From: Citrobacter gillenii
GTDB taxonomy: Bacteria; Pseudomonadota; Gammaproteobacteria; Enterobacterales; Enterobacteriaceae
Length of the DNA: 64,000 nt
Reading direction: 5' to 3'
Assembly: GCF_013337685.1 (NCBI RefSeq)
Contig: NZ_SUQN01000007.1
Location: 1 to 64,000 of the forward strand
Shown here: in pieces, positions 170 through 23,621 of the stretch
Layout of the letters: every line of letters starts with the position of its first letter
How positions within the stretch are numbered: position 1 is the stretch's first letter
Translations under genes and position numbers: made by a program
The notes under the pieces: generated by a model
The model's database searches: none
Seen by the model: only the letters and a program-made list of their open reading frames with translations
What the model was told of the DNA's origin: nothing

Positions 170-2296
<2,127 letters not shown>

Positions 2297-2380
2297 TTAT
2301 CTTTTAGGCGTTCAATTTAAGTAGCCCAAAGCGGGCTGCTTACAAGAAGCGCCCGCCTGGTGACTATTACTCCGAAGGGA

Positions 2381-3424
<1,044 letters not shown>

Positions 3425-3446
3425 GAAATATACAACGATCCCGCAA

Positions 3447-3734
3447 TTACCAGGCAATCTGGTTGGGATGCTTCACCGTAAGTCTGACGAAGTCAGTATA
3501 GCTAACCCTGACGACACTGTCTGAAATTTGACCACCCAACCCGCGAGCCTTAATGTCTTCTTCCAGTACATAAACCTTAATGGAGGCATTTTGCAGCGTT
3601 TCAAGGAAACGGCTGCCTTCTATGGCTGCAGTCACGCCGTCCTGAAGCAATAAAAGCTCATCGTCTGCGCCAACAAGACGCAGCAGGGAGGAGAAGTCAG
3701 TCAGCCACGGTGAGCGATGTAGAGTATGCAGCAT
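3447..3734 (-). CDS. tusB: tRNA 2-thiouridine relay protein TusB
   Basis: TusB is part of the cytosolic TusBCD heterohexamer. The complex takes persulfide sulfur from TusA and passes it to TusE for MnmA-dependent 2-thiolation of wobble uridine (mnm5s2U). The 95-residue length equals the family norm, and the start [10 protein letters not shown] is typical. It lies 6 bp downstream of tusC in the tusDCB order. The E. coli gene order yheO-tusD-tusC-tusB-rpsL is fully kept. Confidence 0.95.
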
Positions 3735-3740
3735 GCGCGT

Positions 3741-4100
3741 TTAGAACCTCATAATGACGTCATAGTTGCCCAGTTCACGGCGCAGTTCTTCAGGTTCAAG
3801 TACCGTCGCATCGACAACGAATTTCATGTCCGTATCAAGGCCACGTTCGCGCAATGAGGCAGCGCACAGCCAACATTGTTCTATATCGTACAGCCCCAAC
3901 AATTTGAAGGTCGCAATATAGTCCCGTGCCAGAATGAGATCAGGTTTTTGCTCTGGCAGGATTTGGAAGACGCCGTCCCCGATAAAAAAGACGCCGAGAT
4001 CTTCTGTTAGTGCTGATGTCGCCAGTAGTGCATCCAGACCTTCACGGCCCGATGCGCTCCCGTGAGGCACGGTGGAAAATACAAAAGCGATTCGATTCAT
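3741..4100 (-). CDS. tusC: tRNA 2-thiouridine relay protein TusC
   Basis: TusC is the second DsrE/F-fold subunit of the TusBCD sulfur carrier. I chose the start at [14 protein letters not shown] (119 residues) rather than an 8-residue extension. It gives the family length and the usual 1-nt stop/start overlap with tusD at 4100. The fold is recognisable from [15 protein letters not shown] and [13 protein letters not shown]. It is translationally coupled to tusD and tusB. Confidence 0.95.
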
Positions 4101-4486
4101 TAGAACTGCACCACGCGATCGCACGTCAGGGATGCCTCAGCGAGCGAACCCAGCCCACTCAGGTTAAAACCCGCTTGTAAATTAGCCCCAGCCAACGCCA
4201 ACCTCTCTGCTTCAGTTTCATCAACAACGCCGCGGCGTAGCGCCGCTGCCACGCAGATATTTAGCTCTACGCCATGCTGTTGATTAAGCTGTTGCCAGGC
4301 GCGAACCAGATCAAATTCATCACTGGCGGGCGACGTCAGCAGATTGGCGTTATACACGCCTTCACGATAGAAAAAGACACGGCTTAACTCATGACCTTCT
4401 TCAATCAATGCGTGAGCAAATTGCAATGCGCTGCTCGCCTGCTGCGTACCATAAGCAGGTCCAGTCACGACAATAGCAAAGCGCAT
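4100..4486 (-). CDS. tusD: tRNA 2-thiouridine relay protein TusD (sulfur acceptor)
   Basis: TusD is the DsrE-type subunit of TusBCD that receives the persulfide on a conserved cysteine. The 128-residue product begins [20 protein letters not shown], and a conserved Cys occurs in the segment [12 protein letters not shown] (near residue 78). Its stop overlaps the tusC start and its start touches the yheO stop at 4486. Expression is therefore probably coupled across yheO-tusDCB. Confidence 0.95.
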
Positions 4487-5208
4487 TACTTGTCTTGCCC
4501 CTGGAAATCACCGCTCTTGAACTGGCGAATATAAAGATAAACCGTGTGCTTGGAGATGTTCAGGCGGTCAGCAACCTGGTTAATAGCATCTTTGATATCG
4601 AAGATACCTTTCTCATACAAGTTCAGGACAATCTGACGATTCTTCGCATTGTTGGAGACGTTACGATCGGCATTCACTTCTTCAATCGTGAACTCCAGCG
4701 TCTGGGTAACCAGATCTTCCACTGATGAGGCGAAGTTCACGGCAGAACCCACTTCTGGGGTTTCCGGTGGAATAAAGGTATTCATTATCTGCGAGAAAGG
4801 AACATCAAGGTTCATATTGATACACAGCAGACCAATTACGCGATGCTCACGGTTGCGAATGGCAATCGTCACCGACTTCATCAAGACACCGCTTTTCGCA
4901 CGTGTGAAGTAACACTTCGACACGCTGCTATCCGCACCCGTCATATCATGCAGCATGCGCAACGCCAGATCGGTAATCGGTGAGCCAATTTTACGACCCG
5001 TATGTTCACCGTTAGCAATGCGAATAGCCGAGCATTTCAAATCCTGCAAAGAGTGCAATACGATTTCACAATGGGAACCAATGAGCATCGCCAACCCGTC
5101 CACTACCGCTTCGTAGGATTTAAGGATATCGAAGTCGGTTTGATCGAAAGGACGTTGATCCAGCAAATCTAGCTCACTGGTTTCGTTGGTTAAAAGCGAC
5201 CTGGACAT
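4486..5208 (-). CDS. yheO: PAS/HTH transcriptional regulator YheO
   Basis: YheO is a 240-residue DNA-binding protein of unproven target. It has an N-terminal PAS-like YheO domain (about residues 20-150) and a C-terminal helix-turn-helix (about 190-230, around [20 protein letters not shown]). I start it at [13 protein letters not shown] (ATG at 5206-5208). The in-frame GTG four codons upstream sits too close to the GGAG site to be used. It is the first gene of the tusDCB transcription unit and is separated from fkpA by a strong terminator. Confidence 0.9.
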
Positions 5209-5334
5209 GAAAAAAAGCACTCCTTTTCAGGAGCCTGTCGTTATGTTGTCAGGGCAGGCTCATCACTATTAGGGGCATCTAAAGTAATACAGCGCACGAG
5301 GCGCTTTCCAGTATTAATTATATCCTGTCGATAA

Positions 5335-10165: not shown

Positions 10166-12070
10166 ATGATTGTTTTCTCCTCGTTACAAATTCGTCGCGG
10201 CGTGCGCGTCCTGCTGGAAAATGCCACGGCCACCATTAATCCAGGTCAGAAAGTGGGCCTGGTGGGTAAGAATGGCTGCGGTAAATCTACCCTGCTGGCA
10301 TTGCTGAAAAATGAAATCAGCGCCGACGCTGGCGGGTTTACATACCCAGGTAACTGGCAGCTCGCTTGGGTAAATCAGGAAACGCCCGCGCTTGCTCAGC
10401 CTGCGCTGGAATACGTCATTGACGGCGACCGCGAGTATCGTCAACTGGAAGCACAGTTGAACGAGGCCAACGAACGTAACGACGGGCATGCGATTGCCAC
10501 CGTGCACGGCAAACTGGACGCCATCGACGCCTGGACCGTGCGCTCGCGTGCCGCCAGCCTGCTGCACGGCCTCGGTTTTTCTAACGAACAACTTGAACGC
10601 CCGGTCAGCGATTTCTCCGGTGGCTGGCGTATGCGTCTTAACCTGGCTCAGGCGCTGATTTGCCGTTCTGACTTGCTGCTGCTTGATGAACCGACCAACC
10701 ACCTCGATCTCGACGCCGTAATCTGGCTGGAAAGATGGCTGAAAAGCTATCAGGGTACGCTGATCCTGATCTCCCACGACCGTGACTTCCTCGATCCGGT
10801 GGTGGATAAGATTATTCATATCGAACAGCAAACCCTGTTCGAGTACACCGGGAACTACAGCGCGTTTGAAGTACAGCGTTCCACTCGCCTCGCACAGCAA
10901 CAGGCGATGTACGAAAGCCAGCAGGAGCGCGTGGCGCATCTGCAAAGCTATATCGACCGCTTCCGGGCGCAGGCCACCAAAGCCAAGCAGGCGCAGAGCC
11001 GTATCAAGATGCTGGAACGCATGGAGCTGATTGCCCCGGCCCATGTTGATAACCCGTTTCACTTCAGCTTCCGCATACCCGAAAGCCTGCCTAACCCACT
11101 GCTGAAAATGGAGAAGGTCAGCGCAGGTTATGGCGAGAACATTATTCTCGACTCCATCAAGCTGAACCTGGTGCCAGGGTCACGCATCGGCCTGTTAGGC
11201 CGTAACGGCGCGGGTAAATCCACACTGATTAAACTGCTGGCAGGAGAACTGGCGCCGATTAGCGGTGAAATCGGTCTGGCGAAAGGTATTAAGCTCGGTT
11301 ACTTCGCCCAGCATCAGCTGGAGTTTTTACGCGCGGATGAATCGCCCATTCAGCATCTGGCCCGTATGGCGCCACAGGAGTTAGAACAGAAGCTGCGTGA
11401 TTACCTCGGCGGCTTCGGCTTCCAGGGCGATAAAGTCACCGAACAGACCGCTCGCTTCTCGGGGGGTGAAAAGGCACGACTGGTACTGGCGCTTATCGTT
11501 TGGCAGCGTCCGAACCTGCTGCTGCTCGATGAACCGACTAACCACCTGGATCTCGACATGCGCCAGGCACTGACCGAAGCGTTGATCGATTTTGAAGGCG
11601 CACTGGTGGTGGTGTCGCACGACCGTCATCTGATTCGCTCCACCACCGACGACTTCTATCTGGTGCACGACAAGAAGGTTGAACCGTTCGACGGTGATCT
11701 GGAAGATTATCAACAGTGGCTGAGCGACGTACAAAAGCAGGAAAGTCAGAGCGATGAACCTGCAAAAGAGAGCGTCAACAGCGCCCAGGCGCGTAAAGAC
11801 CAGAAGCGCCGTGAAGCCGAACTGCGCACCCTGACCCAGCCGCTGCGTAAAGAGATTACCCGTCTCGAAAAAGAGATGGAGAAGCTGCAGGCACAGCAGG
11901 CACAAGCGGAAGAAAAACTCGGTGACAGCGAGCTGTACGACCAAAGCCGCAAGGCCGAACTGACCGCATGTTTACAACAGCAAGCCAGCGCTAAATCGGG
12001 GCTGGAAGAGTGTGAAATGGCCTGGCTGGACGCGCAAGAGCAACTTGAGCAGATGCTGCAGAACGACTAA
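10166..12070 (+). CDS. yheS: ABC-F family ATPase YheS
   Basis: YheS is a soluble ABC-F ATPase of the translation-factor type. It is thought to act at the ribosomal E site and has been linked to relief of arrest-peptide stalling. The 634-residue product has two ABC modules: Walker A GKNGCGKST (about 35) and GRNGAGKST (about 345), signatures FSGGWRMRL and FSGGEKARL, and two LLDEPTNHLDLD Walker B motifs. A P-site-type linker lies between them and a C-terminal coiled coil at about 540-634. There is no membrane domain. Only 16 bp separate it from mdcR. Confidence 0.95.
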   Translation: MIVFSSLQIRRGVRVLLENATATINPGQKVGLVGKNGCGKSTLLALLKNEISADAGGFTYPGNWQLAWVNQETPALAQPALEYVIDGDREYRQLEAQLNEANERNDGHAIATVHGKLDAIDAWTVRSRAASLLHGLGFSNEQLERPVSDFSGGWRMRLNLAQALICRSDLLLLDEPTNHLDLDAVIWLERWLKSYQGTLILISHDRDFLDPVVDKIIHIEQQTLFEYTGNYSAFEVQRSTRLAQQQAMYESQQERVAHLQSYIDRFRAQATKAKQAQSRIKMLERMELIAPAHVDNPFHFSFRIPESLPNPLLKMEKVSAGYGENIILDSIKLNLVPGSRIGLLGRNGAGKSTLIKLLAGELAPISGEIGLAKGIKLGYFAQHQLEFLRADESPIQHLARMAPQELEQKLRDYLGGFGFQGDKVTEQTARFSGGEKARLVLALIVWQRPNLLLLDEPTNHLDLDMRQALTEALIDFEGALVVVSHDRHLIRSTTDDFYLVHDKKVEPFDGDLEDYQQWLSDVQKQESQSDEPAKESVNSAQARKDQKRREAELRTLTQPLRKEITRLEKEMEKLQAQQAQAEEKLGDSELYDQSRKAELTACLQQQASAKSGLEECEMAWLDAQEQLEQMLQND

Positions 12071-12086
12071 CCACGAAAGGCGGACG

Positions 12087-13019
12087 ATGAACTTATCAAT
12101 CACCGATGATATTACCTTCCGCAAACTGACCATCTTCATGACCTTTATGGAGAAGGGCAACATCGCCCGTACCGCCGAGGCGCTGGATATCAGCGGCGTG
12201 AGCGTGCATCGGGCGCTGCATACGCTGGAAGAGAACGTTCGTTGTCCGCTGTTTGTACACAAAGGGCGTAACCTGATTGCGCAACCGGCGGCGTGGACGC
12301 TGCTGGAGTACTGTCAGGAAGTGACCCAGTTGATGGAACGTGGGCTGGAAGAGACGCGCAAAACGGCGGGCGTCGGTCAGGGCCGTCTGCGTGTCGGCAC
12401 GCTCTACTCGTTAACGCTGGAAACAGTGCCACGCCTGATTATGGGTATGAAGCTACGTCGTCCGGATCTGGAAATGGATCTGACGATGGGATCAAACGAA
12501 GCCCTGCTGAATATGCTGGAGAGCGGTACCCTGGATGCGATTCTGATCTCGATCTCTGAAAGCGAGATCGACCGTAACAGTCTGGAAGTGTTGCCGCTGT
12601 TCCACGATGACATCTACCTTGCTGCACCGATCACGGCAGCGCTGGATCCCAGCAAAACAGCGGATCTTCGCAATTATCGCAATGAGAAGTTCGTCTCGTT
12701 GGCGGAAGGCTTTGCCACCTATGCGGGCTTCCAGGAAGCGTTTCATGTCGCCGGGTTTGAGCCTTCAATCGTCACTCGCGTGAACGATATTTTCTCGATG
12801 CTCAGTCTGGTGCAGGCAGGGGTTGGATTCTGTTTGATGCCAGGGCGAATGAAGAAGATGTATGAGAATACCGTGAAGCTGCAAAAGCTGTCCGAGCCCT
12901 ATCAAATGCAGCAACTTATCGCGATTGTCTTTGCCCGCAACCGCGAGCGCGACCCGAGTTTGCTGGCGTTAGCTGCCGAAGGGCGGATGTATGCGCGGAG
13001 TTTGAAGAGCGGAGCCTGA
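12087..13019 (+). CDS. mdcR: LysR-type regulator of malonate utilisation MdcR
   Basis: This 310-residue LysR-family regulator has an N-terminal winged helix-turn-helix (about residues 10-70, with RTAEALDISGVSVHRALHTLEE) and a C-terminal periplasmic-binding-like effector domain. Its place next to mdcABCDEFGH marks it as the malonate-responsive activator. The start at ATG 12087 is supported by AAAGG seven bases upstream; a 25-residue upstream extension would overlap yheS and is rejected. It is co-directional with yheS and convergent to mdcH, with a BIME between. Read-through from yheS could contribute to its expression. Confidence 0.88.
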   Translation: MNLSITDDITFRKLTIFMTFMEKGNIARTAEALDISGVSVHRALHTLEENVRCPLFVHKGRNLIAQPAAWTLLEYCQEVTQLMERGLEETRKTAGVGQGRLRVGTLYSLTLETVPRLIMGMKLRRPDLEMDLTMGSNEALLNMLESGTLDAILISISESEIDRNSLEVLPLFHDDIYLAAPITAALDPSKTADLRNYRNEKFVSLAEGFATYAGFQEAFHVAGFEPSIVTRVNDIFSMLSLVQAGVGFCLMPGRMKKMYENTVKLQKLSEPYQMQQLIAIVFARNRERDPSLLALAAEGRMYARSLKSGA

Positions 13020-13020
13020 T

Positions 13021-13098
13021 TGCCGGATGGCAACGCTAACGCGTTTTATCCGGCCTACCGATTTTGTAGGCCCGATAAGCGCAGCACCATCAGGCAAT
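13021..13098. repeat. REP/BIME element between mdcR and mdcH
   Basis: TGCCGGATGGCAACGC...TTATCCGGCCTAC is followed by the inverted unit GTAGGCCCGATAAGCG...CATCAGGCAA. These are the same REP types as elsewhere in the window, at a convergent gene junction inside the accessory block. Confidence 0.85.
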
Positions 13099-13102
13099 AC
13101 CA

Positions 13103-13999
13103 CTATGCACGCAGCCGTTTCGCCAAATGTACAGCAACATCCACGCCGCTGCGTTCCAGCGAAATTGACTCCCCTTCCCACGCCGCCTGACGCGTCAGGC
13201 AGGTCAGCACACCGCCGGGTGGCATTTCAATCGCCAGCCGGGCTTCACGCTCATTGGCGGAGACAACCGCCTCCTGCCAGCGCACGGTGCGCGCCATATT
13301 CATCGCCAAATCGTCAGCAATGCGCTCCGGCTGCCACAGCACGCGTCCAGTGCTGCCGCTGAGATAAGCGTAGCGAGGACGAGAAAGTGTCACCTGGCTA
13401 AACGCCTCTGCCAATTTTTGCGCAGGTTCTGCCAGGAGTTCGCAGTGTGACGGTACGCTAACCGCCAGACGATGCGCTTTGCTCGCCCCTTTCTCCAACG
13501 CCCGTTTTGCCACTCCAGCCATTGCCTCATCAGTCCCGGCAATCACAATCTGCGTTTCGGCATTGAGGTTGGCGATATACGTTCCGCTCCCCGCCACCAG
13601 CGATTCCACCTGCGATAACGTCAGCCCCATGATCGCCGTCAGGCCGTAGCCATGTGGATAGGCCTGCTCCATCAAATCACCGCGCAACGCCACCAGTTTA
13701 AGCGCGTCGGTAAAGTCGAGCGCCCCGGCCACCACCGCTGCCGGATATGCACCAATCGACAGCCCGCTCACAATGTCTGGTGAAACGCCGCGACGTTCCA
13801 GCTCGCGCGCCCAGGCAACCCCGGCAATCAACAGCGCTAACTGTACCGCTCGGGTGTGTTGCAATGCGTCAGGGGAATCCAGCGTATCCGCTTCTGCACC
13901 CAGCACTTCACGTGCCAGCGCCAATTCCGTTCCCGGCAGGTTATGCAGCATCTCTGGATGCTGGGTTCCCTGTCCCGGAAAGGTGAACAGAATTTTCAT
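13103..13999 (-). CDS. mdcH: Malonyl-CoA:ACP transacylase of malonate decarboxylase, MdcH
   Basis: MdcH primes the malonate decarboxylase cycle by loading a malonyl group from malonyl-CoA onto the ACP subunit MdcC. The 298-residue product belongs to the FabD-type acyltransferase fold: FTFPGQGTQ at the N terminus, the nucleophile Ser81 in GLSIGAY, and His185 in VPSHCE. It is the last gene of the mdcABCDEFGH operon, with its ATG directly abutting the mdcG stop. A BIME follows. Confidence 0.92.
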   Translation of the reverse strand: MKILFTFPGQGTQHPEMLHNLPGTELALAREVLGAEADTLDSPDALQHTRAVQLALLIAGVAWARELERRGVSPDIVSGLSIGAYPAAVVAGALDFTDALKLVALRGDLMEQAYPHGYGLTAIMGLTLSQVESLVAGSGTYIANLNAETQIVIAGTDEAMAGVAKRALEKGASKAHRLAVSVPSHCELLAEPAQKLAEAFSQVTLSRPRYAYLSGSTGRVLWQPERIADDLAMNMARTVRWQEAVVSANEREARLAIEMPPGGVLTCLTRQAAWEGESISLERSGVDVAVHLAKRLRA

Positions 14000-14617
14000 T
14001 TACTCCTCCCTGCTCCACGGGTCGCTCACCAACCGCGGCCCCTGCGATGTTTTTAACAGTGCCCTGCCGTCGCGCAGCCATTCGTTTAGGGCAAACGCGC
14101 CATACGGCGTTTCTACCTGAGTGTCCGCGCGGCACAGGCCGTCCGTGAGCTGTTGCTGCCATTTTTCCAGCACCTCGCGTGATAGCGCCTGCGGGGCACG
14201 GATCAGCAAATCCAAATCGCTACTGGCATGAATCACCGGGATCCCGGTCGCCAGCGCATAACCGGTGCTACCGGTAATACCCCATATCCACGGCCACGCT
14301 TGCTGTGACAGCAACAAAGCCACCTGAACCGGTGGCTGAGAGATAAACGGTGAACGCAGCATCGCCTGCGGGTCAACCAGCGACTCCGGGGTACAGACGC
14401 GGGTGACGGCATCAGGATTCACCCAACCCGCCGCCCGCTGACAGCGCTTCATGCCGCGCACACCGACGGGGATACGCCCCGCCTCGTCAACATCACGCCG
14501 CACAACCACCGGCAGGCCGGTATGCCAAACGTCATCCACCCAGGATTCCGTGGTCTCTTCCAGCGCGTCACGCGCATTCAGCCAGATAAGATCGTGTGGG
14601 CGTAATGTTGAGGTCAT
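14000..14617 (-). CDS. mdcG: Phosphoribosyl-dephospho-CoA transferase MdcG (holo-ACP synthase)
   Basis: MdcG attaches the 2'-(5''-phosphoribosyl)-3'-dephospho-CoA prosthetic group to the serine of MdcC, using the precursor made by MdcB. The 205-residue product has the nucleotidyltransferase signature GSTGYALATG (about 116-125) followed by SSDLDLLIRAP (about 132-142), whose two aspartates should bind metal. It lies 3 bp after mdcF and abuts mdcH. Confidence 0.9.
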   Translation of the reverse strand: MTSTLRPHDLIWLNARDALEETTESWVDDVWHTGLPVVVRRDVDEAGRIPVGVRGMKRCQRAAGWVNPDAVTRVCTPESLVDPQAMLRSPFISQPPVQVALLLSQQAWPWIWGITGSTGYALATGIPVIHASSDLDLLIRAPQALSREVLEKWQQQLTDGLCRADTQVETPYGAFALNEWLRDGRALLKTSQGPRLVSDPWSREE

Positions 14618-14620
14618 GAT

Positions 14621-15580
14621 TTACATTCCTGAAGTCAGCGAGATAAACAGCGGCAGCGACAGGATACACAGGACTGAGCTCAACAGCAGCACGGCTTCTG
14701 CATCCGGCGACTGCACGCCAAAGCGGTTACCGAACACCACACCGAAGAAACCGGCAGACAGCGCAATCATCAGAATAGCGGTAATGGCTACGGAGCCATG
14801 CAGACCGAAGATAAGCACGATGCCCCAGGCAATTGCAGGCTGAATCAGCAGCTTGGTAATAGTCGACGTAATGACCACGGTATTGATCTGCAGTTTACGG
14901 GCAGACAAGATAACCCCGGTCAGGAACAGCGCGGCGGCGGTTGCAGACAGGCCCAGCGGTTTAATGGCCGCCAGTACCAGTTCCGGCATTTTGATGCCGA
15001 TCGCCGAGAGAATAACCCCCAACAGCGGGCCCATCACGATAGGTTTCTTGATAGAGCGCCACATCAATACCGGCAGCATTGACAGTGTGGAGCCGGTATT
15101 TCCACCTGCTGCCAGCGCTTTTTCACGCTCCAGAATCAGCAGGCAGAACGGCGTCATCAGCACGGAACCGCAGGCAATAGACACGGCAACCGAAAGCGAC
15201 GTTGATGACGCTTCACCGAGGACGCTACCAAGAATCGGCAAGCCAAGCGCCGCGTAGTTTGGCAGCGCGACGGTCAACGTCAGCACGGCGGCATCCTGCG
15301 GAGATTTTTTGAAGACTTTGGTCGCCATAAAGTAGATGACGGCATAGGTAATCCACATTGCCAACGTCAGCACCACAATCAGCGGCGACTGCGCAACAAT
15401 ACCGGCCCATGGGGTTTGTACCGTCGCGCTAAACAGCGCAGCGGGTAAAGCAAAGTCCATCACGAAGATATTGAGCAGGGAGACGTTTTTGTTGTCCACC
15501 ATTTTGGCCTTCCCGGCCCAGAATCCTAGTAGCATGATGACGAAAATCGGAGCAAGAGCATGAACAATTACGTAAGTCAT
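14621..15580 (-). CDS. mdcF: Malonate transporter MdcF (auxin efflux carrier family)
   Basis: This 319-residue integral membrane protein of the AEC family has about ten hydrophobic segments in two blocks. Conserved polar kinks occur at PNYAALGLPIL and near the C terminus (GNRFGVQ). Its place between mdcE and mdcG is that of mdcF in the Klebsiella operon, where it is the proposed malonate carrier. The start MTYVIVHALAPIFV has a good AGGTGAAAT ribosome binding region. The 121 bp gap before it is the widest in the operon, which may allow an internal promoter. Confidence 0.9.
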   Translation of the reverse strand: MTYVIVHALAPIFVIMLLGFWAGKAKMVDNKNVSLLNIFVMDFALPAALFSATVQTPWAGIVAQSPLIVVLTLAMWITYAVIYFMATKVFKKSPQDAAVLTLTVALPNYAALGLPILGSVLGEASSTSLSVAVSIACGSVLMTPFCLLILEREKALAAGGNTGSTLSMLPVLMWRSIKKPIVMGPLLGVILSAIGIKMPELVLAAIKPLGLSATAAALFLTGVILSARKLQINTVVITSTITKLLIQPAIAWGIVLIFGLHGSVAITAILMIALSAGFFGVVFGNRFGVQSPDAEAVLLLSSVLCILSLPLFISLTSGM

Positions 15581-15701
15581 ATTTCACCTGTAATTTAAAA
15601 AGTTAGCACTGTCGCGATGATTATTATTTTTCAGATGCAGTGGCCCGCATGAGCGCACGAAAGCGCCCACGGAGCCTTATATCTGGCAGGTCTCTTTTTA
15701 C

Positions 15702-16505
15702 TTACCAGCTTGCTCGCATACGTTCGCGTACGAGGGCAGAGCTGCGGCGATTGTCAGCGCCCAGACGGCTTTTCAGCGTTGGATCCTGACGAGCGTCATT
15801 GATGGCCTGCTGCAGGGTGTTTTTAACCTGCGTCAGATCGTTTGCAGATGGCGCATCTGGGTTGCTGATATCCAGCAGATTTTCCAGCAGCCCCAGCGTG
15901 GCGTAGTTGCTGATGTCGTACGCCATTGGCGGAATGGTTGCCGCCAGTTTTTCCAGCGCCTCAACGGAACGCAGCGTGATACGCGCGGCAGATTCTTTAC
16001 CCATCGCATGAATCAGCACACCTTTGTCGTTGAACGCAATCAGACGGTTTGCCTGGTAACCGTGTGCCAGGAAGGCACCGGACATGGCTTTACCGACAAT
16101 CAGGCCAATGACCGGGTGGCCCGCCAGACGCGCATTGGCATACGCCGCCGCAGCACCGGCCAGCGCCTGGTGAATACCGAAGCCTTCTTCACGACGACCG
16201 TATGCCTGGCTTGGCACATCAATCACCGCCACAATCGGACGTTTCACCGCGTTATTGGCGTCGGCTGCGATGGTTTCGCTCACCACTTTCGCCAGTGTCC
16301 AGCCTTCCAGCAGACCGACTTCACCGCCAGCAGCACGTGGGTAATGGTTATTGGCATCCGGAACAACGGCAATAAAGCGCACCGTTTCACCGTTCAGTTC
16401 ACCATCAGCGGCCTGTACGGACGGGCACAGCCCGGCAATACGTTTAGCGTTCGGTACGAGGGTTTCCAGCCATAATTCGCCACGGCTTATTGAGTTACTC
16501 ATCAT
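15702..16505 (-). CDS. mdcE: Malonate decarboxylase gamma subunit MdcE
   Basis: MdcE and MdcD form the biotin-independent carboxy-lyase that decarboxylates malonyl-S-ACP to acetyl-S-ACP. The 267-residue product is of the crotonase-like carboxyltransferase fold, with GRREEGFGIHQALAGAAAAY (about 103-122) and GKAMSGAFLAHGYQANRL (about 138-155). Two tandem ATGs are possible: the first overlaps the mdcD stop (ATGA), and the second has the better 7-base spacing from GGAGG. I give the longer form. Confidence 0.92.
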   Translation of the reverse strand: MMSNSISRGELWLETLVPNAKRIAGLCPSVQAADGELNGETVRFIAVVPDANNHYPRAAGGEVGLLEGWTLAKVVSETIAADANNAVKRPIVAVIDVPSQAYGRREEGFGIHQALAGAAAAYANARLAGHPVIGLIVGKAMSGAFLAHGYQANRLIAFNDKGVLIHAMGKESAARITLRSVEALEKLAATIPPMAYDISNYATLGLLENLLDISNPDAPSANDLTQVKNTLQQAINDARQDPTLKSRLGADNRRSSALVRERMRASW

Positions 16506-17335
16506 TTCACCTCCCGGGCGAAAAGCGCATGAATCTGTTCGGTATCGGCCTGTTTACGGGTGTCGAAATTCGTTAAACGGTCGAGATACCAGTCGTAGTT
16601 ATCGGTGCGGTGTTTTGCCGGTACGCCTTTTGCCAGCGCGTCGTTCATTGCCGCTTTCACGGCGTTAACGCCATCGCCGACCAGTGCTTCCACCAGCCCG
16701 CTTTGGTAGCGAATTTCACCACCGGTCATGCTCCAGATAAACGGACGGTCACGGGAGTCATACTCTTCAATCCCCGCTTCCTGCTCGATAACCTGCGGGC
16801 CGTTCAGCCCCAGACGCGCTTCACGGGTCACTATCAGGTAGCTACACAGTGCCGCAGCGATAGACATCCCGCCAAAGCAGCCCACGGTACCGGCGACAAT
16901 GCCGACTACCGGGGTGTAACGACGCAGGTCAACAATCGCCGCATGAATATCGGCAATCGCCGCCAGGCCAAGGTTGGCCTCCTGCAAACGCACGCCGCCG
17001 GTTTCCAGGCTTAAAACAGCCTGAGTTGGGATGCCGTTGCGGTTATCTTCCGCCGCCAGCTCCAGCGCCGCTGCCATTTTGGCACCGGACACTTCACCCA
17101 TGCTGCCACCCTGGAATGCGCCTTCAATCGCCACCACCACTGCCGGTTTGCCGTTGATGGTGCCTTTAGCAACGACCATGCCGTCATCCGACTGCGGAAC
17201 GATGCCCTGCGCGCCAAGCCAAGGCGACATCACGCCGTCAAACGGGTCGAGCAGTTCGCGGTAGCTGCCTTCATCAAGCAGCGCGTGGGCACGCTGGCGT
17301 GCTTTTAATTCGATAAAACTGCTGTCATCACGCAT
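16502..17335 (-). CDS. mdcD: Malonate decarboxylase beta subunit MdcD
   Basis: MdcD is the partner of MdcE in decarboxylating malonyl-ACP. The 277-residue product has the carboxyltransferase core: GALQGG-like loop VVAIEGAFQGGSMGEVSGAK (about 68-87), LETGGVRLQEANLGLAAIAD, and GTVGCFGGMSIAAALCSYLI. It overlaps mdcC by 8 bp and mdcE by 4 bp, showing tight translational coupling. No biotin-dependent partner is seen, in agreement with the soluble biotin-independent enzyme type. Confidence 0.93.
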   Translation of the reverse strand: MRDDSSFIELKARQRAHALLDEGSYRELLDPFDGVMSPWLGAQGIVPQSDDGMVVAKGTINGKPAVVVAIEGAFQGGSMGEVSGAKMAAALELAAEDNRNGIPTQAVLSLETGGVRLQEANLGLAAIADIHAAIVDLRRYTPVVGIVAGTVGCFGGMSIAAALCSYLIVTREARLGLNGPQVIEQEAGIEEYDSRDRPFIWSMTGGEIRYQSGLVEALVGDGVNAVKAAMNDALAKGVPAKHRTDNYDWYLDRLTNFDTRKQADTEQIHALFAREVK

Positions 17336-17627
17336 GGCTCACCTCTTCAAATACCTGTTCGATACGAATACGTGCAACACCTGGGGTTGCACCAAAGTCG
17401 TGGATCGTCAGTTTTCCTGCAGGCAGGCTGCTGACCGTTTGCAGACGGTTCAACAACGCTTCCCAGCGACTACGGCTGTTATCGACAGAAGTGGTGATAT
17501 CAATGGTTAACGTCTGGCTCTGGTCGGCGGTGAATAACACCTCCATATCCCCGGAGCCCACAACGCCTGCCAGCGCTTTACCGCTTAAGGTGCGGCTGGC
17601 CGGTACGGTTAACGTAATGTGTTCCAT
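17328..17627 (-). CDS. mdcC: Malonate decarboxylase acyl-carrier protein (delta subunit) MdcC
   Basis: MdcC carries the acetyl/malonyl thioester of the decarboxylase. The 99-residue protein has the expected length for the citrate-lyase-like ACP family. The attachment serine is Ser25 in VVGSGDMEVLF, the position modified in the Klebsiella protein. It lies 9 bp after mdcB and overlaps mdcD. Confidence 0.93.
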   Translation of the reverse strand: MEHITLTVPASRTLSGKALAGVVGSGDMEVLFTADQSQTLTIDITTSVDNSRSRWEALLNRLQTVSSLPAGKLTIHDFGATPGVARIRIEQVFEEVSHA

Positions 17628-17636
17628 AACATCCTC

Positions 17637-18494
17637 TTAATGCTTTAAATACGGCGAATCGATGCGGTCAACAAACAAGGTGGCGGCGAGTAAATCTGCT
17701 GCCCCGCCCGGCGAGGCGTTCAGCGCCAGCATATGGCTATCGAGTGCGGCCAATGCCGCCTGACCTGCTGGATGAGCGCTGCCGCCAGCATTCAGCACCG
17801 CACGGGCGCCGTCCTGCATGGCATCCAGCCCTTCCATGCCTGCGCGAGACAGCACGCAGGTATCGGTCAGCGAGGTCATGATCGCCATCAGCGCGTCGAG
17901 TCTGGCGTGCGTTTCACTGCTGCCGTTAAACCGGCTTAAACGCAGTTGCGGCAGCGCACGTTGCATCACATGCGGAAACGCCTGCTGTGCCTCTTCACGT
18001 GCACCCGGCACCTGATAACGGTGCGTCGCACGCAGCCCTTTGCTGAACACTTTAGGTGCGGCGGCATCCGGCAGTTTTGCCAGTTCGGCGGCGGTCGCCG
18101 CGACCTGCTGTGCACTCGCGGTGCCACCGTGCATTGCCACCGCGCTCACCAACAATCCCAGTGCCCAAATCGCGCCACGGTGGGTGTTCACACCGTCCGT
18201 GGCCGCCATCATCTGTTGCTCGCCTTCGCGACCGAGTCGCCCTATGGTTTGTCTGAGCGCAATATCCGCTGGACGCTGCCAGCTTTGTTGCGCTAACGAC
18301 TGAAATGTAGAGGTCAGGCTGTGCGCAGAGCGCTCCATTAACGCAAGCGACAAGTCGTGATGCGCGCCATTCCCCCGACTGTCCACCAGACCGGGTTTCG
18401 GGCTGAGTCGCGCTTCGTCAATCAGACACTGCGTGGCAGTTTGCGCCAGCCATTCGGCACCGCCTTCAACCTGAATCGGGGACAGAAGTTTCAT
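17637..18494 (-). CDS. mdcB: Triphosphoribosyl-dephospho-CoA synthase MdcB
   Basis: MdcB makes the cofactor precursor from ATP and 3'-dephospho-CoA, as CitG does for citrate lyase. The 285-residue product shows the family motif SPKPGLVDSRGNGAHHDL near residues 31-48 and a conserved GVNTHRGAIW block near 100. I start at MKLLSPIQVEGG because its ATG overlaps the mdcA stop (TAATG). A 16-residue upstream extension runs inside mdcA and is rejected. Confidence 0.92.
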   Translation of the reverse strand: MKLLSPIQVEGGAEWLAQTATQCLIDEARLSPKPGLVDSRGNGAHHDLSLALMERSAHSLTSTFQSLAQQSWQRPADIALRQTIGRLGREGEQQMMAATDGVNTHRGAIWALGLLVSAVAMHGGTASAQQVAATAAELAKLPDAAAPKVFSKGLRATHRYQVPGAREEAQQAFPHVMQRALPQLRLSRFNGSSETHARLDALMAIMTSLTDTCVLSRAGMEGLDAMQDGARAVLNAGGSAHPAGQAALAALDSHMLALNASPGGAADLLAATLFVDRIDSPYLKH

Positions 18495-20149
18495 TACCAG
18501 CTCCGGAATTTCGCAGGTGGGTTGTAAAGACCGCCAGACCATTCAACGAGATCGGACACGCTACCGGCGGCCAGCAGAGAACGGGTCGCGTCGGTACGAC
18601 GAATGCCCATATCTTCTGGATACACCACCTTGCCACTCTGACGCAGTTCAGCGACGCGTTTCGCATCAACGCCCAGACCGATGTCGGTGATCCCGGCAAC
18701 CGCAGCCACCATCGCCCGGCGCTCTTCAAGATCTTTTGCCCGGTAGAGGTAAGCGATCCCTTCTTCGGTCAGGACGTGGGTGACGTCATCGCCATAAATC
18801 ATCACCGGTGCCAGCGGCATCCCGGAGGTTTTGGCGACTTCAACCGCATCAAGTTTCTCGACGAAGGTCGGTTTCACACCGGCCTGGAAGGTTTCAACCA
18901 TCTGAACAACCAGTTTTTTACCGCGCTGCATTGGGTCAGGTTCGGTAATCATGTTCAGCCAGGCAGGTGTTGCATGACGACGGCCGTGCGGGTCATGGCC
19001 CATGTTTGGTGCGCCGCCGAAACCAGACAGGCGTCCACGGGTCACCGTTGAGGAGTTGGCATAGCCATCAACCTGCAAAGTGGAACCGATAAACATATCG
19101 ACCGCGTACTGACCCGCCAGCTGACAGAAAGCACGGTTAGAACGCATTGAACCATCGGCACCGGTGAAGAACACGTCTGGGCGGGCACGGATGTACTCTT
19201 CCATCCCTAATTCACCGCCGAAGCAGTGCACGCTTTCAACCCAGCCGCTTTCGATAGCAGGAATCAGCGTTGGATGCGGGTTCAGCGTCCAGTGTTTACA
19301 GATTTTGCCTTTCAGACCCAGCTGTTCGCCGTAGGTCGGCAACAGCAGCTCGATTGCCGCAGTGTTAAAGCCGATACCGTGGTTGAGCGACTGGACCTGG
19401 TGTTCTGCGTAGATACCTTTAATGGCCATCATCGCCATCAGGATATGTTCTTGTTTGATCAGGCGCGGGTCACGGGTGAACAGCGGTTCAATGAAGAACG
19501 GCTTATCGGCGACGACCACGTAATCAATCCATGAGCCCGGAATATCAACGCGCGGCAGGTCGCATTCATCGTCGACCAGTTCGTTAACCTGCGCGATGAC
19601 GATACCGTCATGGAATGCGGCGGCTTCAACCAGCGCCGGGGTATCTTCAGTACTCGCCCCGGTGTAGAGGTTACCTTTGCGGTCGGCTTTAAAACCGGCA
19701 ATCAGCGCCACGTTTGGTGACAGGTCAACATACAGACGGGAGTAAAGTTCGATGTAGGTGTGGATGGCGCCAATTTCCAGCTGACCATCTTCCAGTAGCT
19801 GCGAAATACGCAGGCTTTGGGTACCGGAGAAAGAGAAGTCCAGCTTGCGAGCGATACCTTTTTCGAAGATATCCAGATGCTCGCTGCGTCCGACGCTGGG
19901 CATAATCATGTGCAGGTCGTGCACTTTTTGCGGGTTAACTTCAGCCAGCATGCGAGATAAGAAATCTGCCTGCTTTTGGTTATTCCCTTCTAATACCACG
20001 CGGTCACCCGGCGCGATAAGTAATTCCAGCATCGCGGTCAGGTCTGCGGTCGGCAGAACCTTGCCCTGCACCGGAACGGAAGCCAGACGCCGCTGTTTTT
20101 CTGTGCGGCGGGTGTTCCAGACTCGAGCTGGCGTTTGCCCAGATAACAT
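18494..20149 (-). CDS. mdcA: Malonate decarboxylase alpha subunit MdcA (acetyl-S-ACP:malonate ACP transferase)
   Basis: MdcA swaps malonate for acetate on the ACP, releasing acetate and forming malonyl-S-ACP in each turnover. The 551-residue product is of the CoA-transferase-like family, matching the known alpha subunit in length. Recognisable stretches are FKADRKGNLYTGASTEDTPA (about 155-174), NHGIGFNTAAIELLLPTYGE (about 259-278) and GRLSGFGGAPNMGHDPHGRR. It is the first gene of the operon. A strong AGGAGG sits 6 bases before the ATG, and an inverted repeat abuts that site. Confidence 0.93.
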   Translation of the reverse strand: MLSGQTPARVWNTRRTEKQRRLASVPVQGKVLPTADLTAMLELLIAPGDRVVLEGNNQKQADFLSRMLAEVNPQKVHDLHMIMPSVGRSEHLDIFEKGIARKLDFSFSGTQSLRISQLLEDGQLEIGAIHTYIELYSRLYVDLSPNVALIAGFKADRKGNLYTGASTEDTPALVEAAAFHDGIVIAQVNELVDDECDLPRVDIPGSWIDYVVVADKPFFIEPLFTRDPRLIKQEHILMAMMAIKGIYAEHQVQSLNHGIGFNTAAIELLLPTYGEQLGLKGKICKHWTLNPHPTLIPAIESGWVESVHCFGGELGMEEYIRARPDVFFTGADGSMRSNRAFCQLAGQYAVDMFIGSTLQVDGYANSSTVTRGRLSGFGGAPNMGHDPHGRRHATPAWLNMITEPDPMQRGKKLVVQMVETFQAGVKPTFVEKLDAVEVAKTSGMPLAPVMIYGDDVTHVLTEEGIAYLYRAKDLEERRAMVAAVAGITDIGLGVDAKRVAELRQSGKVVYPEDMGIRRTDATRSLLAAGSVSDLVEWSGGLYNPPAKFRSW

Positions 20150-20343: not shown

Positions 20344-21834
20344 TTATTTTTGCGCCGCCAGGCGCTGGCGGATATCGTCGAAATGTTGACGGTGATAAAG
20401 CTTACCGTCGAGGAAGCGGGTTTTCAGCTCGCCTTCCTGCTCCTGTTGCCAACGTTGTTCATCATGCAGTCGTAACTCGCCCTGCTCATCACGTGCAACG
20501 CGCAGCAGCCCGCGGGCAGAGCGTTTCAGACCATTGTCGGTTTTCGGCTCCTTAAAGATGGTCCGGCCTTTACCGTTCACTTCTCCCCAGGTCGCTTTCA
20601 TCGCAAAGCCAAAGGTATCTCGCGTGTTGTACTGATAGGTAAACGATCCCACCCCGAACACCACGTTTGAGCTGGCAAAGCCTTTAGCCTCGAGGCGACG
20701 CAAGATTTCATTCGCCCGCTCCAGCGTAATGGAGTCGCCATAAATCAGCCCTACATGCGGGTCGAGCACCTTATACCCTTTGGCGTTTACCGTACCGCCA
20801 AAAATCTCCCACAGCACCTCCACGGAACCTTTTTCCTCTGGCGTACGTTCGGCACGGTTATCGTCATCTAACCCAGTGCCACACAGAATATCGACCGGGT
20901 TACCGCTGTCCGGGCGGAACACCACCCGCCCCTCACGCGCCAGAATGATGTGCTTCAGTTCCCGGGTATACTCCGTCAGCACCTGCCAGTAGTCCCAGGT
21001 ATCGGAGACTATCGACACAAATCCCTGCGGGTACAGATCGGCAATCAGACGACGGAAGGTTTCGATCTCGTGTTCGCGCTCGCCCATGCACATCACGCTG
21101 TGCTCGGTGGCTGGAATGCTGGCGCCGATGAAATACGCCTCGCCGTCGGTGTAGTAATCACGGGCATACAGCAGCGACGGAATACTGTCAGTGCCTTTAA
21201 AGCTCAGCAGATGCCCGCCGCCCGCCTGCATGGTGTCCTGCAATCCTGACATACCGCGAAACGAAAAGTCATGGCACTGGAAGTCAAGGTGCGTCATATC
21301 GCTACAGGTTTTTTCTGCCCAATGCGCACAGATTTTGCGGTAGTGATGCGCGATGGTGGCATTGGTTGAGGCTTTCCACAGCTCAGCCGACAGTACCGTC
21401 TCGAGGTAATTCACCAGCCAGAAAAACTCAGGTTGAGTATTGATGATGGTTAATACCGGCACAGCCATCGGGACTTTGCTGCCTTCATCCAGTGCTTTAA
21501 TGTGCAACGGCAGATAACCCAGCTGATGCAGCGCACGAATGTGATCAACCGCCACGGCATCTTTTCCCAGATACCCGTCCATCACCTGTTTGTATTCACT
21601 GACCACCTCTTCCTGCGGTCGGGCAAAGAACGCCTCGTTAAACAAATCAACCAAAAACCACTGCAAAAAACCCTGCAGACCGAAGAACACCAGCTTGCCA
21701 TCCGGCAACGGCGACGAGAAAAAGCGATCGCTGCGCGGGGTAAAGTTGGAATAGACCCGGCTGGTGCCCTGCGGATACTGCACGCGGTGAGACACTTTGT
21801 AGCCATCAATAGCCAAGATTGGATTCATTTTCAT
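20344..21834 (-). CDS. nadV: Nicotinamide phosphoribosyltransferase NadV
   Basis: NadV condenses nicotinamide with PRPP to give NMN. This bypasses the PncA deamidation route usual in enterobacteria. The 496-residue product has the NAMPT family length and motifs: AIDGYKVSHRVQYPQGTSRV at the N terminus, YSNFTPRSDR, SDTWDYW (about 279), the PRPP-site stretch FRPDSGNPVDI (about 308), LIYGDSITLER and the segment GVGSFTYQYNTRDTFGFAMK. It is 14 bp downstream of the PRPP-synthetase-like gene and probably co-transcribed with it. It is an accessory gene in this family, often carried by phages and plasmids elsewhere. Confidence 0.93.
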   Translation of the reverse strand: MKMNPILAIDGYKVSHRVQYPQGTSRVYSNFTPRSDRFFSSPLPDGKLVFFGLQGFLQWFLVDLFNEAFFARPQEEVVSEYKQVMDGYLGKDAVAVDHIRALHQLGYLPLHIKALDEGSKVPMAVPVLTIINTQPEFFWLVNYLETVLSAELWKASTNATIAHHYRKICAHWAEKTCSDMTHLDFQCHDFSFRGMSGLQDTMQAGGGHLLSFKGTDSIPSLLYARDYYTDGEAYFIGASIPATEHSVMCMGEREHEIETFRRLIADLYPQGFVSIVSDTWDYWQVLTEYTRELKHIILAREGRVVFRPDSGNPVDILCGTGLDDDNRAERTPEEKGSVEVLWEIFGGTVNAKGYKVLDPHVGLIYGDSITLERANEILRRLEAKGFASSNVVFGVGSFTYQYNTRDTFGFAMKATWGEVNGKGRTIFKEPKTDNGLKRSARGLLRVARDEQGELRLHDEQRWQQEQEGELKTRFLDGKLYHRQHFDDIRQRLAAQK

Positions 21835-21848
21835 AACAGGTGTCTCCC

Positions 21849-22709
21849 TCAGGCGCGGTAAATCGCGTCAATGTCGATAAGTTCAAGCTGCGGATGGGCC
21901 AGCGTAGAGGACGCTAACGATGTGGTGGTGTAAACGGCGTCAATGCCGTTGGCAAACAGGTGCTCAACGCCCTTAGAAAAGATCCCGTGGGTGACGTACA
22001 GGCTGACGCTGCGCGCGCCGGCATCGCGTAAAACCTGGGCAGAGCCAATGAAGGTGCCGCCAGCGTCGCACAGGTCGTCGACAATCAGCACATCCCGGCC
22101 TTTAACATCCCCGGCAACCAACGCGAAACCCGTCAGGTTGCCGCTGGCGACATCGCGTTTTTTGCTCAAAATGGCGTACTCAGCAACCCCTGCGGCTCTG
22201 GCGACAGCATCAATTTTCTTTAATGCTCCGGCATCAGGAGCCACCAGCATCAGCGCATTTTGCTGGAACTGGCGCTGCAAGGTCACGCTTTGCAGCAGAC
22301 AGACTTCCTGGGGAAGAGTGATGAAATTATCGATAGCCGCTGCCGCCGCGTCGCTGTGTGGATCAAGTACCTTCACCTTGTCGAACTGCAACGTATTGAG
22401 CTGACGGGCAAAAACCTTCAGCGCAAAGCTGTCGCCCGCAACCATATGTCGGTCCTGGCGCGCCCACGGCAGCCAGGGAAGTTCAAGATGGCTGACCCGT
22501 ACATCGGTCTGATGGCGCACCGCGTCGACCAACTGCGCCAACAGCATAAAGTCGTTCATATCGCGCATCGCCGTGGCACGAATGCGCATCTGGTGAGCGA
22601 AGGATGGCAACGCGTCGGTGACTTTCAACCAGACGGCCCCATCAGGAAAAATACCGCTGGCAATAGCGTAAGCCTGGTCATCCAGCGTTAAGGTTAATTT
22701 TACGCTCAT
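21849..22709 (-). CDS. Ribose-phosphate pyrophosphokinase-like protein (PRPP supply for NadV)
   Basis: This is a PRPP synthetase paralogue of 286 residues, shorter than the housekeeping PrsA (about 315). Visible motifs are LPWLPWARQDRHMVAGD (flexible-loop region, about 78-94), LDPHSDAAAAAI in place of the usual LDLHADQIQGFF, and the ribose-5-phosphate loop DVLIVDDLCDAGGTF (about 209-223). The reaction would be ATP plus ribose 5-phosphate to PRPP plus AMP. Its linkage to nadV suggests dedicated PRPP supply. The divergence of the histidine loop leaves activity and allosteric control open. Confidence 0.82.
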   Translation of the reverse strand: MSVKLTLTLDDQAYAIASGIFPDGAVWLKVTDALPSFAHQMRIRATAMRDMNDFMLLAQLVDAVRHQTDVRVSHLELPWLPWARQDRHMVAGDSFALKVFARQLNTLQFDKVKVLDPHSDAAAAAIDNFITLPQEVCLLQSVTLQRQFQQNALMLVAPDAGALKKIDAVARAAGVAEYAILSKKRDVASGNLTGFALVAGDVKGRDVLIVDDLCDAGGTFIGSAQVLRDAGARSVSLYVTHGIFSKGVEHLFANGIDAVYTTTSLASSTLAHPQLELIDIDAIYRA

Positions 22710-22724
22710 CTCGCTTCCCCTTTA

Positions 22725-22747
22725 AATTGTGTCCCTTCGACACAATT
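22725..22747 (-). promoter_or_regulatory. Putative NrtR operator 1 (proximal to the prs-like gene)
   Basis: A near-perfect palindrome with arms AATTGTGTC and GACACAATT around CCTTC lies 16 bp before the prs-like start codon. The GTC-N5-GAC layout is like NrtR sites described in other bacteria. It shares the core TGTCCCTNNGACA with the next site. Confidence 0.7.
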
Positions 22748-22752
22748 AATAA

Positions 22753-22765
22753 TGTCCCTAAGACA
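22753..22765 (-). promoter_or_regulatory. Putative NrtR operator 2
   Basis: TGTCCCTAAGACA repeats the core of operator 1 (TGTCCCTTCGACA at 22730-22742). The centres are 23 bp apart, about two helical turns, which suits two dimers on one DNA face. It is flanked by AT-rich imperfect arms (AATAAT/ATTATT). Confidence 0.65.
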
Positions 22766-22901
22766 ATTATTAAGCAAGCATAAAATAAAGTATTTTTGAA
22801 CGTGCGCTAATCAACTGATAATCAATGGAAAAAAAACGTACCTTGCCCACCGATACCGGGCTGGTACACTTGGCAGCGTTGCACATCATCGTGAGTACCT
22901 T

Positions 22902-23621
22902 ATGACCACCGAAGCCGACTACCTGAATCAGTACGATGCCCGCCGCTTTCCCTCCCCGCTGGTAACGGTGGATAGCGTGTTGTTTACCGTGCATCAACAG
23001 GCGCTGTGCGTGCTGCTGGTCGAACGGGCAAACCAGCCGCAGAAAGGACGTTGGGGATTACCCGGCGGCTTTATTGATATGGCACACGATGATTCCACTC
23101 GCGCCACAGCGCTGCGTAAACTCACTGAAAAAACAGGCGTTTCGCCTTCGTGGCTGGAACAGCTGGACACATTTTCCGGGCCAGATCGTGACCCGCGTGG
23201 CTGGAGCCTGACGGTCACCTGGTTTGCGCTGATCGCCTGGGTGGACTGCGAACCGCATATTGCCAGCGTCAGCGATGCCCGCTGGGTCCCGGTTGATAAG
23301 CTTGCCGACTATCCGCTGGCCTTCGACCACCAGGCGATCATTGATGCCGCCCTGAACCGGCTGCGGCAAAAAACGAAGTATTCTTTACTGCCCGTTTATT
23401 GTTTGCCGGATACCTTTACCCATGGTCAGCTACAGGAAGCCACAGAGGTTATCCTCGGCCAGCCGATTCAGCGCAAAAGCCTGATCCGCCGCTTTGAGGC
23501 CTCAGATATGTTTGAAGATACCGGTGAAAGCATGGCCACCGGCACGCGGAAAGCCCGCCTGTGGCGACGTAAACCGGGTGTGGATTTTCATCTTTTCTCA
23601 CGTAACCTGCTGGCTGAATAA
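22902..23621 (+). CDS. nrtR: NrtR-type transcriptional regulator with degenerate Nudix domain
   Basis: NrtR proteins repress NAD biosynthesis genes and are released by ADP-ribose or related NAD derivatives. The 239-residue product has an N-terminal Nudix fold (about 15-150) and a C-terminal winged-helix domain (about 160-235, TKYSLLPVYCLPDTFTHGQL). The Nudix box is altered: RKLTEKTGV replaces REUXEEXGU, and the upstream Glu is His (GGFIDMAHDD). Catalysis is therefore unlikely, as expected for a sensor. It is divergent from the prs-like gene and nadV across 192 bp holding two matching palindromes, which supports local control of that pair. Confidence 0.9.
   Translation: MTTEADYLNQYDARRFPSPLVTVDSVLFTVHQQALCVLLVERANQPQKGRWGLPGGFIDMAHDDSTRATALRKLTEKTGVSPSWLEQLDTFSGPDRDPRGWSLTVTWFALIAWVDCEPHIASVSDARWVPVDKLADYPLAFDHQAIIDAALNRLRQKTKYSLLPVYCLPDTFTHGQLQEATEVILGQPIQRKSLIRRFEASDMFEDTGESMATGTRKARLWRRKPGVDFHLFSRNLLAE

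Follow-up and report, generated by a model that had tools for sequence, protein, structure and literature searches.

The window, a 64,000-nucleotide stretch of Citrobacter gillenii DNA, carries three adjacent genes. Two of them lie side by side on the reverse strand, separated by 14 bp, as is characteristic of NARP1: an adps-like gene, prs by family name (21849..22709, 286 aa), and behind it a namat-like gene, whose family names are nadV or 'nicotinate phosphoribosyltransferase' (20344..21834, 496 aa). The third, nrtR (22902..23621, forward strand, 239 aa), is divergent from this pair. All three open reading frames start with ATG, confirming the arrangement described in the earlier note. The namat-like protein belongs to the domain family NAPRTase/NAMPT_N, the adps-like protein has Prs-type domains, and the regulator combines NUDIX with NrtR_WHD. 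The adps-namat pair is presumably read as one transcript; a scan for promoters and terminators gave a yield no greater than with shuffled sequence. On one side, the set is flanked by yheS and by what we take to be an mdc operon, on the other side by yheT-yheU-prkB-yhfA-crp (names by E. coli annotation, mdc excepted). Inspection by eye of the ORFs listed between positions 6000 and 27500 revealed no recognisable phage or plasmid genes, and the G+C content over the three genes, 0.49–0.58, is within the range of the flanks, in line with the core-genome setting that the earlier note had proposed. The same genome also encodes PncA, a canonical Prs elsewhere, and NadR, implying that the three-gene set constitutes an extra route. 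A family search of the genome for TIR_2 and SIR2_2 NADases found neither, and a TIR or SIR2 NADase of the host's own was therefore rejected as a source of ADP-ribose (ADPR).

In a tree of 33 Adps and 28 Prs rows, the adps-like protein groups with Adps, apart from canonical Prs, with a split support of 100/100. The Adps rows, sampled from 144 distinct Adps, include the window protein as well as the DyoEdafos and ICP1 proteins, which come from pairs with experimental support; DyoEdafos has a very long branch, and the tool gives a warning about long branches. One long-branch Prs row (L244), which sat with Prs in an earlier tree, was omitted. Against phrog_619 the window protein reaches 263 bits, against the Prs model TIGR01251 140 bits, an order that recurs in five other Adps tested and is reversed for the host's own Prs (193 and 418 bits, respectively). 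The curated subfamily cut-off of TIGR01251 (113 bits) is exceeded by the window protein and also by two of the five other Adps, L263 (135 bits) and L167 (125 bits), indicating that this model does not separate Adps from Prs. The diagnostic residues lie in the loop DDLCDAGGTF (residues 211–220), the equivalent of the DDxxDT(A/G)GT loop of Prs, which has a role in R5P binding. Position 216 is Thr or Ser in all 29 Prs (27 Thr, 2 Ser) and in 0 of 144 Adps; in the window protein it is Ala, so that the residue typical of canonical Prs is missing. The AlphaFold model of the protein is confident (mean pLDDT 93.8), and a sequence search of the PDB set returned Prs-type entries only. The phylogeny suggests that the gene product is likely an ADP-ribose pyrophosphate synthetase, producing ADPR-PP from ADPR and ATP.

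Over 475 aligned residues, the namat-like protein shares 54.5% identity with SPbetaL1 Namat (PDB 9W5X), and 19 of the 20 NAD+-contacting residues listed for the latter are identical, the single difference being S368 in place of A362. Codon 37 (21724..21726, reverse strand) encodes the clamp-loop Arg that equals SPbetaL1 R40. As defined in the main text of PMC12774641, the clamp helix of Namat reads GSX-Phi-X-Phi-X-Phi-TRD, its third and seventh positions being aromatic. The window protein has GSFTYQYNTRD at codons 396–406 (20617..20649, reverse strand), including the adenine-stacking F398 and Y402, which agrees with this definition; it has neither the GGxLLQ-type helix equivalent nor the adps-free neighbourhood of PRPP-using Nampt/NadV. 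In SPbetaL1, the double change R40A/F392G, equivalent to R37A/F398G in the window protein, abolishes most of the NAD+ synthesis while NMN synthesis is retained (PMC12774641). A tree calculated without the clamp columns, sampling 65 of 214 Namat/Nampt rows, also assigns it to the Namat side, separate from 18 Nampt. Among 183 distinct proteins, 144 have both clamp aromatics and an adps gene within 2 kb, 31 have neither, and there are four exceptions of each kind; His and Trp were scored as aromatic, and related sequences are included, so the counts are not independent events. Despite a neighbouring adps, four distinct proteins do not have both clamp aromatics, and two of the four with aromatics and no adps have less than 1 kb upstream. 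Because the flank of most Nampt and Pasteurellaceae-type loci is only about 1.5 kb, 'no adps' means none within that flank. In the one group on the Namat side for which adps was not found in the fetched flanks, both aromatics are absent in 9 of 9 rows, Haemophilus ducreyi pNAD1 included. The product of the namat-like gene is thus likely a nicotinamide ADP-ribose transferase, which would form NAD+ from ADPR-PP and nicotinamide.

Given the Adps grouping of the prs-like protein and the Namat clamp in the nadV-like one, the enzyme pair probably acts on ADPR and yields mainly NAD+. The earlier note had proposed a nicotinamide salvage module in which a dedicated PRPP synthetase feeds a NAMPT to yield NMN. 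The two-gene, nicotinamide-using pair with its divergent NrtR stands, whereas the NAMPT/PRPP-synthetase chemistry is probably wrong in view of the Adps grouping and of a clamp selective for ADPR-PP.

The window NrtR consists of a Nudix-type sensor, in which the Nudix box is degenerate (GGFIDMAHDDSTRATALRKLTEKTGV), and a winged helix. Its score against the NCBIfam NrtR equivalog NF050029 is 227 bits, below the cut-off of 400, and it is 50% identical to Shewanella oneidensis NrtR, for which structures in complex with DNA and with ADPR have been published. Published work also reports that ADPR releases relatives in this repressor family from DNA, in the case of Mycobacterium smegmatis NrtR at the very high level of 50 mM ADPR. 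Immediately upstream of adps there are two tandem TGTC-N5-GACA palindromes, the candidate operators O1 (22725..22747, core 22730–22742; AATTGTGTC-CCTTC-GACACAATT) and O2 (22753..22765; TGTCCCTAAGACA), 23 bp from O1. At least two TGTCN5GACA sites per region occur in 40 of 40 enterobacterial regions examined, with conservation assessed for the pair at 22730 and 22753 alone. Genome-wide, the motif has 41 matches, and the backward control likewise has 41, meaning that TGTCN5GACA by itself is not evidence; a wider NrtR regulon drawn from it alone was rejected. The tandem palindromes are putative NrtR sites.

Taken together, we consider it highly probable that the three genes form a NARP1 module that is chromosomal and controlled by NrtR. 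Observed here are the order and family placement of the genes, the residues of the clamp and of the NAD+ contacts, the conservation of the palindromes, the purifying selection and the shared locus; the reactions of Adps and Namat and the release of NrtR by ADPR come from published relatives, and the window proteins would act in the same way. Cleavage of NAD+ would cause ADPR to build up, and binding of ADPR to NrtR would make the repressor leave both of the tandem operators that precede adps. The Adps enzyme would then convert ADPR to ADPR-PP at the expense of ATP, and Namat would join ADPR-PP and nicotinamide to give NAD+ in one step, until the drop in ADPR lets NrtR repression resume. Given that NrtR is in the ADPR-released family and that the palindromes precede adps, the substrate of the pathway would be its own inducer.

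Overlapping with the NARP1 reading is the possibility, which we hold only tentatively, that at high ADPR levels the pair makes NAD+ from this compound, and at other times some NMN from PRPP. According to the main text of PMC12774641, phage Namat keeps about half of the NAM+PRPP activity of human Nampt in vitro, which leaves room for PRPP-dependent NMN synthesis, and the available text of PMC6095924 reports that S. oneidensis 'NadV' expressed in E. coli raised NMN; close Shewanella-type relatives of that protein have the Namat clamp (MR-1 itself was outside the comparison). However, should NrtR repress whenever ADPR is absent, the genes would be silent with PRPP alone available, and the loop residues of the Adps are unlike those of Prs. 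A purely NMN-forming module, with a NAMPT supplied by its own PRPP synthetase and NadR carrying NMN on to NAD+, appears unlikely. It agrees with the family names given by curated models, the TIGR01251 score, the presence of NadR and the two published activities just cited; it is at odds with the Adps/Prs split, Ala216, the complete clamp, the lack of both aromatics throughout the group without adps in its fetched flanks, and the canonical prs already present elsewhere in the genome.

Compared with four Citrobacter genomes (L173–L176), dN/dS is 0.04–0.09 for all three genes, indicating purifying selection; across the ten genomes compared it reaches 0.22 (adps versus Erwinia), with one value undefined. 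In most enterobacterial loci examined, the module lies near yheS/yheT, with remnants where it was lost; the E. coli genomes searched gave no match to the locus DNA. The module is long established at this place, and a recent phage or plasmid island was rejected on the basis of these locus comparisons. It is very improbable that the module is an anti-defence cassette captured from phages recently and without a role in the host: homologues are plentiful in phages (1469 and 1936 matching records, counts that take in proteins other than Adps or Namat), but the closest phage-encoded Namat is a single record at 60–80% identity, all other Namat and all phage Adps lie below 60%, and the shared locus, conserved palindromes, purifying selection and remnants argue against recent capture. 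NrtR is found nearby in five of six named non-enterobacterial chromosomal loci versus 0 of 77 viral contigs with adps and namat.

A broader view, to which we give even chances, is that bacteria have long had, in chromosomal NARP1, a third route of NAD+ salvage, recycling intact ADPR under an ADPR-sensing NrtR; that the NrtR 'prs-nadV' regulon of 2008–2009 is the same pathway, in which case the inducer of the regulator is the substrate of the pathway; and that phages later took both enzymes without the regulator. The locus offers bacterial NARP1 a regulator and a testable logic in which ADPR is both signal and substrate. The assignment would provide a rationale for ADPR control by this type of NrtR, would correct the 'prs-nadV' naming in Citrobacter, the Klebsiella oxytoca group, Kosakonia, Serratia, Erwinia and Shewanella-type genomes, and bears on the origin of the phage anti-defence NARP1.

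The remaking of NAD+ from ADPR and nicotinamide was first described in phages defeating bacterial immunity. The NARP1 of phages and of Paenibacillus foliorum (PMC12774641) has the same adps-namat gene order; the window differs from the systems treated in the main text of that paper in being chromosomal in Enterobacteriaceae and in having a divergent NrtR and tandem palindromes. Bacterial NARP1 is already known, and Lan et al. state that its role calls for more study (PMC12774641); their main text contains no mention of NrtR, Shewanella, Citrobacter or Enterobacter. SPbetaL1 NARP1, the source of the Namat compared above, has a clamp motif identical to that of the window. The NrsAB pair of ICP1, according to the available text of PMC11559045, raises NAD+ during SIR2-HerA defence; it is an adps-namat pair like the one in the window, but phage-borne and with no NrtR match in the 10.3 kb fetched. 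The NadV of H. ducreyi, the top NMN producer among three tested in E. coli in the accessible part of PMC6095924, is nested on the Namat side of the tree, as is the window protein. In contrast to the window, its 5.6 kb plasmid pNAD1 has no adps match, and its clamp helix, GAQTYQRNTRD, has lost both aromatics. NrtR control of 'prs-nadV' has reportedly been published already: Rodionov (2008) and Huang (2009) are said to have described an NrtR regulon of S. oneidensis with these genes, naming the enzymes PRPP synthetase and NAMPT. Among the open-access papers searched, we found none that links NrtR and NARP1. Two genomes whose NrtR is 93% identical to that of S. oneidensis have nrtR, adps and namat and the same TGTC-N5-GACA palindromes as the window; in this Shewanella-type order, nrtR>adps>namat run on one strand, whereas in the window nrtR is divergent.

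The three genes lie where an earlier note had placed them, as the ORF listing confirms: a nadV-like gene (20344–21834) and a prs-like gene (21849–22709), separated by 14 bp on the minus strand, with nrtR (22902–23621, plus strand) divergent from the pair. The enzyme identities proposed there are probably wrong. Judged by its sequence, the nadV-like product is probably a nicotinamide ADP-ribose transferase (Namat) rather than the previously proposed Nampt, as Namat is closest in the PDB, contact and clamp residues are kept and the protein falls on the Namat side of the tree. The PDB search placed the Namat of phage SPbetaL1 (9W5X/9W5W) first with 561 bits, compared to 240 bits for human Nampt; identity to this protein is 54.5% (259/475 aligned), 19 of the 20 NAD+-contacting residues listed by Lan et al. 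(PMC12774641) are identical, and the SPbetaL1 clamp residues R40, F392, Y396, T398 and D400 correspond to R37, F398, Y402, T404 and D406. Across 214 aligned relatives, GSFTYQYNTRD or close forms accompany an adps gene, and the Nampt rows mostly carry GGxLLQ..NRD. Both clamp aromatics, together with an adps no more than 2 kb away, were found for 144 of 183 distinct proteins and neither feature for 31, with four exceptions having the aromatics only and four adps only. A quick tree calculated without the clamp columns placed the window protein with Namat, opposite a group of 18 Nampt (SH-aLRT 100). The NCBIfam equivalog NF006629, "nicotinate phosphoribosyltransferase", captures the product of 20344–21834 at 614 bits (cut-off 405), and public annotation therefore probably misnames Namat-type proteins.

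The prs-like protein, described earlier as a dedicated PRPP synthetase, is probably an ADP-ribose pyrophosphate synthetase (Adps) rather than a Prs, considering that it groups with Adps in a careful tree that splits 33 Adps from 28 Prs rows at 100/100 and carries long-branch warnings, above all for phage DyoEdafos. On phrog_619 it reaches 263 bits and on TIGR01251 140, whereas the host's own Prs shows the reverse order (193 and 418). The TIGR01251 cut-off of 113 is also passed by the Adps of two other loci (L263 and L167), so this model does not separate Adps from Prs. In Prs, a loop binds the 5-phosphate of ribose-5-phosphate. Position 216 of this loop is Thr or Ser in each of 29 Prs and in none of 144 Adps, which were gathered for resembling the window protein and for their location near namat; 135 of these Adps have Gly or Ala there, and 142 have Phe220, which occurs in no Prs. 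AlphaFold models the window Adps with confidence (mean pLDDT 93.8). The same genome carries a canonical prs as well, at G000:C19:465121.

Together, Adps and Namat would form the NARP1 pathway, converting ADPR to ADPR-PP and, with nicotinamide, to NAD+. Against this reading count the PRPP activity left in Namat (PMC12774641), the higher NMN seen in E. coli with S. oneidensis NadV (PMC6095924), the NrtR score below its equivalog cut-off and, from Lan et al. (PMC12774641), the failed transplant of the clamp into human Nampt and the stated lack of a published Adps structure. PncA, NadR and canonical Prs are all present in the window's genome, so nicotinamide is already recyclable and NMN usable; no TIR_2 or SIR2_2 domains were found there, and a different kind of NADase, the turnover of ADP-ribosylation or invading elements may supply the ADPR. 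An enzyme pair accepting both ADPR and PRPP, which overlaps with the NARP1 reading, is favored by Namat's PRPP activity and the NMN increase; in view of the evidence counted against NARP1, we therefore keep dual use as a possible, if rather unlikely, reading beside it.

Nine rows including H. ducreyi pNAD1 NadV (L217, L042, L138–L144; eight named by closeness to pNAD1) nest inside the Namat side, with no adps nearby in the fetched DNA (about 0.3–1.5 kb to either side, or for pNAD1 the entire plasmid) and both clamp aromatics missing in every row. The H. ducreyi enzyme gave the highest NMN of three tested in E. coli (PMC6095924). This type looks like a Namat returned to PRPP use after Adps loss and offers a natural test of what determines substrate choice. 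A genome from the window's own taxonomic family (G194, locus L270) has a different salvage set: a Nampt-type gene whose clamp region reads GGELLQ lies close to a second NrtR-like gene and a Nudix protein, with no adps hit.

The window NrtR combines Nudix and NrtR_WHD domains, scores below its equivalog cut-off and is 50% identical over 234 residues to S. oneidensis NrtR, with a similarly degenerate Nudix box. For the latter, DNA-bound and ADPR-bound structures exist, and ADP-ribose releases the M. smegmatis (stated 50 mM) and S. sobrinus proteins from DNA (PMC6800001, PMC12735969). Just in front of adps, two TGTC-N5-GACA palindromes (22730–22742 and, 23 bp away, 22753–22765) are candidate operators to which NrtR would bind, and adps and namat would be co-transcribed. 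In a survey of 52 loci with 47 usable regions (four were too long, one missed a gene), at least two sites occurred in 40/40 enterobacterial regions, the window and many close relatives included, at least one in all four same-order regions (L263–L266), and none in three regions of other phyla (L211, L214, L215); mononucleotide shuffles predict at most 0.01 per region. L263 and L264 have the gene order nrtR>adps>namat, the same palindromes and an NrtR sharing 93% identity with the S. oneidensis protein of the crystal structures, so that in these two genomes the NrtR type used to establish ADPR control sits on an adps-namat pair. A second close pair of palindromes, 21 bp apart with AT-rich spacers, lies at G000:C23:159426–159459.

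Beyond the enterobacteria, the NrtR winged helix scored above cut-off in 10/10 loci from three phyla preselected for an NrtR-like hit, L213 matching without the Nudix half; a fairer count is 5 of 6 named loci with NrtR within the fetched DNA, L216 being without. Same-order L145 has adps and namat and no NrtR hit within its 3.7 kb. With the window NrtR as query (E up to 1e-5), 0/77 adps+namat loci from viral contigs (flanks up to 3 kb, some shorter at contig ends) and 1/8 from phage records gave a hit. The latter, L170 (adps-namat-NrtR at 2099–5313), is on an Acinetobacter-like contig filed as phage; it looks like misfiled chromosomal DNA, as do H121 and H122, two A. baumannii records filed as plasmids that are about 4 Mb long and match at 59%.

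The named locus that matches best, from Citrobacter sp. Res13-Sevr-PEB04-36, does so at 99% in the nadV-like protein. The gene is present in 13 of 17 Citrobacter genomes searched, the window's included, and matched in 36/295 genomes family-wide: 29 at 79% identity or more, four at 37–38%, two short remnants and one broken copy, probably a sequencing error, in a genome 49% complete. By blastn, the 3.3 kb module had no match in 5,426 E. coli genomes; in a single E. coli record inspected, yheS adjoins yheT. Comparing neighborhoods, as the earlier note had suggested, places the module near yheS/yheT in most of the 39 named enterobacterial loci: nrtR is divergent from adps-namat in all, yheT lies within the fetched DNA in 31 and yheS behind namat in 28, with mdcA replacing yheS in nine and neither present in two. 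Here yheS (10166–12070) is separated from the module by 12012–20149, which we take to be an operon for malonate decarboxylase (mdc) and its LysR-type regulator. The dN/dS is 0.04–0.09 in comparisons with four Citrobacter genomes and rises to at most 0.22 with Erwinia, and namat remnants persist in G207 (3' end, between mdcA and yheT) and, more weakly, in G241 (38 residues, 55%, near yheT); the module is therefore an old resident lost in some lineages.

NrtR control of 'prs-nadV' was reportedly published in 2008–2009. In open PMC full text, which leaves subscription papers outside, we found no paper combining NrtR with NARP1, Namat or ADPR-PP, or Citrobacter with NARP1. An active bacterial NARP1, that of P. 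foliorum, has already been published (PMC12774641), and chromosomal NARP1 was surveyed by Tesson 2024, as cited there.
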